From positions 1 to 64,000 of the forward strand of contig NZ_LNGH01000006.1 of assembly GCF_011057715.1 (NCBI RefSeq): a stretch of 64,000 nucleotides of DNA. Direction: 5' to 3'. Below the pieces are notes generated by a model. The model was not told the DNA's origin and did no database searches. It saw only the letters and a program-made list of their open reading frames with translations. This document shows positions 11,245 through 13,782 of this stretch, piece after piece; position 1 is the stretch's first letter; every line of letters begins with the position of its first letter. This DNA comes from Marinitoga sp. 38H-ov. Its GTDB lineage: Bacteria; Thermotogota; Thermotogae; Petrotogales; Petrotogaceae. The position numbers were made by a program, and so were the translations under genes.

Positions 11245-13782
11245 TTACTCGCCCCCATAATTCACTATTTTGGGCCATATAAAAACATTTAAGTTATATT
11301 CTCTATTTCTTTTTTCACTTGTTTTAAATATAAAACCTATTAATGGTAAATCTTTTAAAAAAGGTATTCCAGAATTTAGATTTTCTTCTTTTATTATCTT
11401 TAATCCCCCTAATATACTTACATAATTATTTTTTAAAATGAGATTAGTGTTTATTTCCCTAGAATTTTCTGCATTATAATCTGATATAGTAGATTTTTCT
11501 GGTTCTCCTACTTTTAAATTTATTTTTAAATCTATTAAGTCATCATGCTCTAAATATTTTGCTTCAATATCTAAAGTCAAACCACTTTCTATATATTGAA
11601 TCGACTTTTCGCTAATTACTGGAACCCTATATACAGACTTGAAAATAGAATTTGTTCCAGATTTTAATATTATTTTAGGCTTTGATAATAATTTTGAATT
11701 AGATTTAGAATCTACATTTGTCGATTCAAAAACACTATCTAATATTTCCTTATATATTCCTGGGTTTATTATTCCTTGATTAATAGATTCAACTATATTT
11801 TTAGAGGTTATTTTAGATTCAATTTTTTGTATTGTTTCTTCTAATATAGAAGAATCAACTATAGCAACTTCAATTGATATAATCTTAGGATTTTTTTCCT
11901 TTACGATTATGATTTTATCTTTCTTTTCTAAATAATAACCGTTTATATCTAAAATGTTTTCAATATCCGAAGGATTATATACAATAATATCTTTTAATTT
12001 TTCATTGTTTATTAATGTTAAATTATTATCCTTTGCATAATTCTCCAATAATTCAAAAGCATTTATACTTAATTGCTTATTATTTAATAATTCTTTTAAC
12101 TTTAAATACTTCTCTTCTGTTGTTTTTAATGATAATAACGATTCATTTTTTTCTCTATATATCTCATTATAATTTATTTTTAATTGTGATGCTATAATTT
12201 TAAAATAATCATATTTATTATTCAATATTTTTAAAAAATATTCTCCTTCATTATTTTCTTTAATATCATATTTATTATTAAAATCTTTTATTATGTTTAT
12301 AATATTTTCCGTGCCTTTTATTATATAATTTTTTTCTATCTTTTGAATTATAACATCTTTAAATATTTGATTAAAAACCAATAAATTTAAATTTGATGTA
12401 ATTATTTCAATTTTTTCGTTATTTTCTATATCTTTTGTGTTATTTTTTTTATTAATTTCTATTTCATTTATCTTCTTTAATATATTATTTATTTTTTCTA
12501 CATCATCACCTTTAACTAAATATATATTTTCATCTATTTTTATAATTTCAGATTTTAATAAATTATTTAATTTTTCTAATGGAATTTCAGTATTGATTAT
12601 TTGTATTTCTTCATTTTTAATTATATTCTTCAATTTATCAATGTCTTTACCTTTAACCAAATAAATATCTTTATCTATATTTGAAACATATAATTCAAAA
12701 AAATCTTCTAATTTTTCTAAATTATATTCTGATTCTATTATTGTGGCATTAGTTGAAATATTTTCATTATTATTATTATTATTATTATTATTATTATTAT
12801 TATTATTATTATTATTATTATTATTATTATTATTATTATTATATAATTTTATTGCTGAGTTATAATAATCTTTAAATTTGGCTATATCATTTTTACTACC
12901 TATTAATAACAATATATTATCTGAAATTTCTGAATATTCTAAATTAAATATTTTTATTATATCCTTTTGAGGTAATTTATATTGAAAAATTTCATATGAT
13001 TTATTATCTATATTATTTACTTTTGATATTATATTTTTAATTATTTCTATTTTATCTTTATTACCTTTTAAAATATATAATGACTCATTTAATTTGACAT
13101 ATTCTAATCCTATTAAAGATAATAAATTAGTAAAGTTTGGAATGGTAGTTGTGATAAAATCAAAATTATTTTCATTATAATCATTTCCATTTATTATAGG
13201 ATAATTAACATTATATATTGGACTATTTGATATATAAATATCCTTAGGACTAATATAATAATAATTAATCCCTGTTGAATCAAATATTATTCTAAATAAA
13301 TCCTCAGGAAAAAATTCTTTTAAATTTAAAGATATATCTTTATCTGGTATATTAGAAATATAATAAACATTATAATCCAATTCTTTCGCTAAAAGGTTTA
13401 TAAGATCTTTTATTTTAATACTTTTAAATTGAAACAAGCTATTGTTTAATGCTTCTTTTCCTTTTACTATTATTTCTAATTTATTATTTTTCTTAATTTC
13501 AACTTCCGTTGGAAATATTGTGTTAATTTCTATTATATTATCATATATTTTTATTTTTTTTATCGGACCTTTTGGTAATATATATTCCTTATTTTCAAAA
13601 ATAGTATCTTTAATTTCTATCTTATAATTATTTTTTATATTATTATTATACACCTCTATATTCGTTGATACTTCTGTTATTTCAATAATGTTATCATTCA
13701 CAATATTATCTACTTTTATTTGATAAGGAAATACTATAATGCTGAATATTATTAGAATAAGTATAATGTATATTTTTTTCAT
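11245..13782 (-). CDS. Secretin (PilQ/GspD-like) with a 25-Asn tract
   Basis: An 845-aa outer-membrane secretin. It has an N-terminal signal peptide or anchor (about 1-20), an N0/STN-like domain near 108-170 (DLINLLAKELDYNVYY), repeated beta-alpha modules, and a C-terminal secretin domain (about 640-845) with LLSKPKIIL, GLTLDIEAKY and SGIPFLKDLPLIGFIFK. Residues 315-339 are 25 consecutive Asn, all AAT codons, between two modules. It should form the channel through the toga/outer membrane for a pilus or type II secretion machine. Its start overlaps the PilP-like stop by four bases, and Memo follows directly. Whether it serves pili, DNA uptake or secretion cannot be told. Confidence 0.88.
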   Translation of the reverse strand: MKKIYIILILIIFSIIVFPYQIKVDNIVNDNIIEITEVSTNIEVYNNNIKNNYKIEIKDTIFENKEYILPKGPIKKIKIYDNIIEINTIFPTEVEIKKNNKLEIIVKGKEALNNSLFQFKSIKIKDLINLLAKELDYNVYYISNIPDKDISLNLKEFFPEDLFRIIFDSTGINYYYISPKDIYISNSPIYNVNYPIINGNDYNENNFDFITTTIPNFTNLLSLIGLEYVKLNESLYILKGNKDKIEIIKNIISKVNNIDNKSYEIFQYKLPQKDIIKIFNLEYSEISDNILLLIGSKNDIAKFKDYYNSAIKLYNNNNNNNNNNNNNNNNNNNNNNNNNENISTNATIIESEYNLEKLEDFFELYVSNIDKDIYLVKGKDIDKLKNIIKNEEIQIINTEIPLEKLNNLLKSEIIKIDENIYLVKGDDVEKINNILKKINEIEINKKNNTKDIENNEKIEIITSNLNLLVFNQIFKDVIIQKIEKNYIIKGTENIINIIKDFNNKYDIKENNEGEYFLKILNNKYDYFKIIASQLKINYNEIYREKNESLLSLKTTEEKYLKLKELLNNKQLSINAFELLENYAKDNNLTLINNEKLKDIIVYNPSDIENILDINGYYLEKKDKIIIVKEKNPKIISIEVAIVDSSILEETIQKIESKITSKNIVESINQGIINPGIYKEILDSVFESTNVDSKSNSKLLSKPKIILKSGTNSIFKSVYRVPVISEKSIQYIESGLTLDIEAKYLEHDDLIDLKINLKVGEPEKSTISDYNAENSREINTNLILKNNYVSILGGLKIIKEENLNSGIPFLKDLPLIGFIFKTSEKRNREYNLNVFIWPKIVNYGGE
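12766..12840. repeat. Perfect (ATT/AAT)25 trinucleotide microsatellite
   Basis: There are 25 uninterrupted in-frame copies of ATT (AAT on the coding minus strand), 75 bases, inside the secretin gene. It is the longest simple repeat noticed in the window and encodes poly-Asn. Such tracts are prone to slippage, and changes of whole units would preserve the frame. Confidence 0.97.

Follow-up and report, generated by a model that had tools for sequence, protein, structure and literature searches.

The secretin gene of Marinitoga sp. 38H-ov carries 25 uninterrupted AAT codons, and we conclude that this tract is likely a passive linker that was made by slippage and is tolerated between two modules of the protein. 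We analyzed a stretch of 64 kb from one contig (hereafter the window), in which the tract appears as a perfect (ATT)25 on the plus strand and as 25 AAT codons, in frame with the secretin open reading frame, on the minus strand. Dinucleotide shuffling of the window, repeated 100 times, never produced a run of (AAT)6 or longer. Under a first-order Markov model (64 kb, both strands), (ATT)25 is expected about 10^-26 times, and a run of 25 Asn residues is expected about 4e-20 times from the Asn content of the secretin gene itself. Among the 53 proteins of the window the second-longest Asn run is three residues, and all simple repeats in the window other than the tract are 12 bp or shorter. Because no shuffle held even six units and the next Asn run is so short, we exclude a chance origin. 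The tract is real and statistically extreme, which confirms what had been read from the letters alone, a perfect 75-base in-frame AAT repeat in a secretin gene.

The same sequence-only reading had taken complete codon identity as a sign of recent expansion. All 25 codons are indeed AAT, but purity is weak evidence of age, since the other genes of the window use AAT for 91% of their Asn codons and the secretin gene, with the tract excluded, for 86%. Codon usage by itself, without slippage, would give 25 of 25 AAT codons with a probability of 0.02-0.10, and we therefore rejected purity as strong proof of recent expansion. The frame behaves as had been proposed: the unit is three bases and lies in frame, so changes by whole units leave the downstream reading intact, and the tract does not qualify as an on/off expression switch. 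Of the three same-strand frames of the repeat, AAT is the one in which expansion is tolerated: one alternative frame reads TAA in every unit, and the other encodes poly-Ile.

The product of the gene matched the secretin family PF00263 at residues 691-840 (E 4.5e-25; 88.6 bits against a Pfam cut-off of 27.5). This was the one PF00263 match in the genome, and the protein is thus probably the only secretin that the genome encodes. Over the C-terminal domain, a profile of the congeneric family matched PDB chains of GspD and PilQ. The protein scored below the subtype cut-offs for both GspD (66 of 351 bits) and PilQ (58 of 284 bits), and for this reason we filed it as a secretin only. To detect modules, the N-terminal part was split by repeats, and segment profiles from the six congeneric proteins were compared with one another using hhalign. 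The layout that emerged consists of five mutually homologous modules of about 50 residues each (M1-M5; hhalign probability 98% for M3-M4 and 97% for M1-M4) and two further segments, all ahead of the channel domain (Table 1).

A model built from the five modules folded the M4 stretch (residues 391-445) as beta-alpha-beta-beta-alpha with a mean pLDDT of 89. In VIA-align, the top match of this model was the periplasmic domain of EscC (3gr5; Z 5.6, rmsd 2.5, 55 residues), and N-domains of EscC, GspD, XcpQ, InvG and pIV scored Z 4-5.6. KH domains, which have the same fold as the model, were interspersed with similar scores, and Foldseek with the M4 model returned no match at E < 1. Fold and context together lead us to assign M1-M5, with moderate confidence, to the N1 type of secretin domain. 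Modeling residues 200-512 with AlphaFold from the single sequence gave a mean pLDDT of 47, and we did not count this poor model as evidence. The tract starts at the first residue past M2 and stops six residues ahead of M3; these hhalign boundaries and the module model agree with the earlier placement of the poly-Asn in a linker between secretin modules. The poly-Asn itself is presumably disordered. Like GspD and PilQ, the protein has a C-terminal secretin domain preceded by a string of N0/N1-type domains; it differs from them in its five homologous N1-type modules, its two further segments and its poly-Asn linker.

Table 1. Features of the secretin gene and of the genes upstream of it, in window coordinates.
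Feature	Position	Strand	Basis or remark
Secretin gene, 845 aa, outer-membrane channel of type IV pilus / type II secretion type	11245..13782	-	ORF, PF00263, PDB profile matches
Secretin beta-domain, residues 691-840	11263..11712	-	PF00263
Module M5, residues 456-506	12265..12417	-	hhalign module comparison
Module M4, residues 393-442	12457..12606	-	hhalign and structure model
Module M3, residues 346-390, six linker residues after tract	12613..12747	-	hhalign
AAT microsatellite, poly-Asn residues 315-339 of 845	12766..12840	-	Sequence and ORF
Module M2, residues 262-314, abuts tract	12841..12999	-	hhalign module comparison
Module M1, residues 209-255	13018..13158	-	hhalign module comparison
N0-like region, residues 117-188	13219..13434	-	Gap-free in all six congeneric proteins; N0 label inferred from position and pattern
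193-aa protein, gene 5' of secretin, no family match, PilO/PilP position	13779..14360	-	Role by position only
137-aa membrane protein, PilN-like by position	14357..14770	-	Role by position only
169-aa protein, PilM-like position	14754..15263	-	Role by position only
Putative minor pilin, weak ComGD-like match	15242..15697	-	NCBIfam NF040982, E 9e-5, under cut-off
GspF/PilC-type platform protein	15642..16763	-	PF00482, E 3.5e-8, GspF profile

The genes upstream of the secretin gene encode small membrane-type proteins on the same strand, a weakly pilin-like protein and a GspF/PilC-type protein, from which we assign the cluster to the type IV pilus / type II secretion type. Our search of the literature on pili in Marinitoga found nothing on point. 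Farther along the same strand, at 20031-20978, lie three tandem cold-shock-protein-like genes in a direct repeat of about 343 bp, each with its own upstream leader.

We compared the secretin with its orthologues in six other species of the genus, one genome per species. These relatives came from a search of the genome set; a protein scan of genome contigs gave none. The tract was absent in all six orthologues, in which the longest Asn run was two to four residues. In the nearest congener (74% protein identity), the sequence at the site is TAT GAT AAT AAT TCA AAT ATT, compared with TAT (AAT)25 GAA AAT ATT in 38H-ov, and this short AAT run could represent the seed from which the tract grew. With absence in six congeners and a seed in the nearest one, the comparison supports the claim of expansion by slippage, as a lineage-specific event. 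The tract has the features of a microsatellite-derived homopeptide: 25 of 25 AAT codons, absence from the six congeners and a position in an inter-module linker. We also considered whether the linker is unusually long and rejected this, because the M2-M3 linker has 31 residues in 38H-ov and 15, 30, 27, 12 and 19 in five relatives. Such closeness to the repeat-free species (12-30 residues) counts against a special effect of length. At this site the linkers of the relatives are of similar length and charged or mixed in composition.

In other species, further linkers of the gene also carry tandem repeats, which are unrelated to the tract. One congener (G001) has an in-frame tandem repeat of a 15-bp unit (6.5 copies) in the linker before M2, another (G006) has a 15-bp unit in 2.5 in-frame copies, and a third (G002) has a degraded AAT-rich array. 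The module complement of the secretin differs among the congeneric species as well; the channel domain has 213 residues in all six aligned rows. In two draft genomes, a one-base shift at or close to a run of A interrupts the secretin frame, in the N-terminus in G001 (L003) and in the middle in G003 (L006), which reflects either sequencing error or real frame variation.

A scan of the 38H-ov genome for further AAT tracts, which had been suggested earlier, found several with 6-14 copies, all shorter than 25, both in genes and outside them. Poly-Asn tracts occur elsewhere in a PolC-like protein, a helicase-like protein, the N-terminus of a membrane protein and an FlhF-like protein (6 copies). These shorter tracts in other genes and outside genes show that AAT expansion is not confined to the secretin. 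One (AAT)14 tract (L039, G000 C12:35392-35433) has a GC-rich hairpin-like inverted repeat upstream of it and is followed by the ribosome-binding site of a small ORF; at this position, changes in its length could affect expression.

Beyond this genome, the pattern searches, which covered the AAT motif, found (AAT)12 or longer in 2 of 103 Thermotogota genomes and (AAT)25 or longer in just 59 stretches from about 85,000 species genomes. In about six of the 59, the repeat is read in frame as poly-Asn next to a sizeable stretch of protein; four of these have 60 or more residues on each side. The repeat is therefore as rare in coding genes as had been supposed. The in-frame examples from other organisms fall mostly at domain junctions or termini, several placed there by Pfam; one separates EIIA from EIIB in a PTS protein, and another separates a C1 peptidase from a DUF4384 domain. 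Long AAT tracts are under-counted and hard to size, because 23 of the 59 are no more than 15 bp away from an end of the stretch retrieved, in most cases a contig end, which shows that assemblers often fail at such tracts. In two Chryseobacterium genomes the AAT repeat reaches 280 and 264 copies (L080 6514-7353 and L103 3037-3828), about ten times the length of nearly all other tracts found. Trinucleotide repeats are reported to be suppressed in prokaryotes, and more strongly so in thermophiles (PMC4060949); our search of the literature on poly-Asn in bacteria found nothing on point.

Slippage in a permissive linker would explain the purity of the tract, its presence in one lineage, the seed in the nearest relative and its site between modules. 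A short AAT run in the loose, fast-evolving M2-M3 linker of the genome's only secretin would have been the starting point, and replication slippage would have extended it to about 25 units after the split from the sampled relatives. The expansion would have been tolerated with a three-base unit and AAT in frame, and a flexible Asn spacer would leave the folded modules undisturbed, so that any effect of the tract would be that of a passive, disordered spacer. Both slippage as the mechanism and the near-neutrality of the tract are what we infer from these comparisons. We rejected loss of mismatch repair as a cause at the level of sequence: MutS is present as an 815-aa frame and MutL as a 615-aa frame that can be aligned as far as the C-terminus of the congeneric proteins, and both score above their cut-offs and look intact. 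A counterpoint to slippage as the whole account is that the tract has 25 copies, whereas no other AAT tract found in the genome exceeds 14. As such tracts are rare across the phylum and MutS and MutL look intact, something may favor a long tract at this site. Most likely, the tract is the outcome of an ordinary process taken to an unusual length, rare in prokaryotes but belonging to a kind of system that is already known.

We weighed three other explanations against slippage in a permissive linker. The tract could be a contingency locus, its length varying fast in populations and each change in the poly-Asn linker adjusting how the secretin assembles, how it gates or how far it reaches, so that variants are selected. 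This is how the sequence-only reading had taken the tract; nothing that we found linked it to the toga, whose anchoring that reading had also proposed as a target. Long pure repeats are generally hypermutable, PF00263 has a single match in the genome, and the small basic repeats (SBRs) of Neisseria PilQ are polymorphic with a reported influence on pilus formation (PMC3441751, PMC2884949). However, the linker length falls within or next to the repeat-free range, the mismatch-repair proteins MutS and MutL seem to be intact, comparable tracts are also found at unrelated and at non-coding sites, and whole-unit changes keep the frame and hence provide no switch. We consider a contingency locus unlikely. 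It is similarly doubtful that the tract, though real, is mis-sized or partly a product of assembly. Its length was read from one draft assembly of 56 contigs, 23 of the 59 comparable tracts lie close to the ends of retrieved stretches, and two congeneric drafts have frame breaks at A-runs in this very gene; yet the contig that encloses the tract is 64 kb or longer, the frame stays open on both flanks, and at 75 bp it is shorter than ordinary short reads and within their span.

The third explanation is that poly-Asn was selected as a protein feature, for example as a sticky or amyloid-like segment that aids oligomerization, with the DNA repeat a by-product. Asn-rich stretches can aggregate, and the secretin is rich in Asn outside the tract (13%). 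Against this, poly-Asn is missing from all of the relatives, whose linkers at the site reach a similar length with charged or mixed residues, and we regard such selection as very improbable.

The closest precedent is Neisseria PilQ, which likewise has low-complexity in-frame repeats between the N-terminal periplasmic domains of a type IV pilus secretin, repeats that the authors of that study called unprecedented in other secretins (PMC3441751). The SBRs are basic octapeptide repeats, lie between the B1 and B2 domains and are polymorphic; the 38H-ov repeat is a homopeptide from a 3-bp microsatellite, lies between N1-type modules and is known from one genome. The Asn runs of Plasmodium and Dictyostelium also derive from repeated AT-rich Asn codons (PMC7534687), but there they are pervasive, whereas here the tract is the sole Asn run above three in the window and prokaryotic cases are few. 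The GAA repeats of Mycoplasma gallisepticum vlhA are a long trinucleotide microsatellite in an AT-rich bacterium, located in promoter regions ahead of antigen genes and variable in length (PMC6258824). In contrast, the 38H-ov tract is inside a coding frame, and whole units cannot shift it. Long pure trinucleotide repeats in frame are very rare in prokaryotes, and this tract offers a clean natural example in a protein of known architecture with unexpanded orthologues. With it, a second case joins PilQ in having low-complexity repeats that separate N-terminal domains of a secretin, and should the tract prove polymorphic, it would lend itself readily to testing whether the length of a secretin spacer matters.

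In another genus of Thermotogota, we observed giant secretins, each read from one uninterrupted frame of 3,900-4,575 aa with the secretin domain at the end (L125:1633-13395 in G029, L126:1212-14936 in G026 and L127:1244-12943 in G027; also G024 and G025), several of them on large or closed contigs. They contain about 41-51 detected copies of a core of about 35 residues from a small repeated module, compared with about five in the protein of the window; our literature search found no paper on giant or large secretins. A speculative idea, which we rate as quite unlikely, is that the N-terminal part of Thermotogota secretins is a spacer of evolvable length between the cell body and a detached outer sheath, with N1-type modules being added and in-frame linker repeats, the (AAT)25 tract among them, tuning it in the short term.

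The surveys also turned up two further settings for AAT repeats. A Wzc/CpsD-like chain-length / tyrosine-kinase protein, its family assigned by reading of the sequence, ends in 9-10 Tyr residues that are an AAT/TAT microsatellite read on the opposite strand. The copy number varies among species (L122 near 2102, G000 C25:7101; L116 near 2189, G006; L118 near 2119, G005), and the repeat thus sets the size of a likely autophosphorylation cluster. In G005 and G006, AAT tracts of 8-14 copies adjoin a shared terminal-looking sequence, TAGTATAGAATAATTAT (L114 2471-2512, L115 2001-2030, L117 2154-2177, L119 164-187 and L120 2096-2119). The L115 tract is next to a transposase-like frame, which suggests an insertion sequence that carries an AAT microsatellite close to its terminus.
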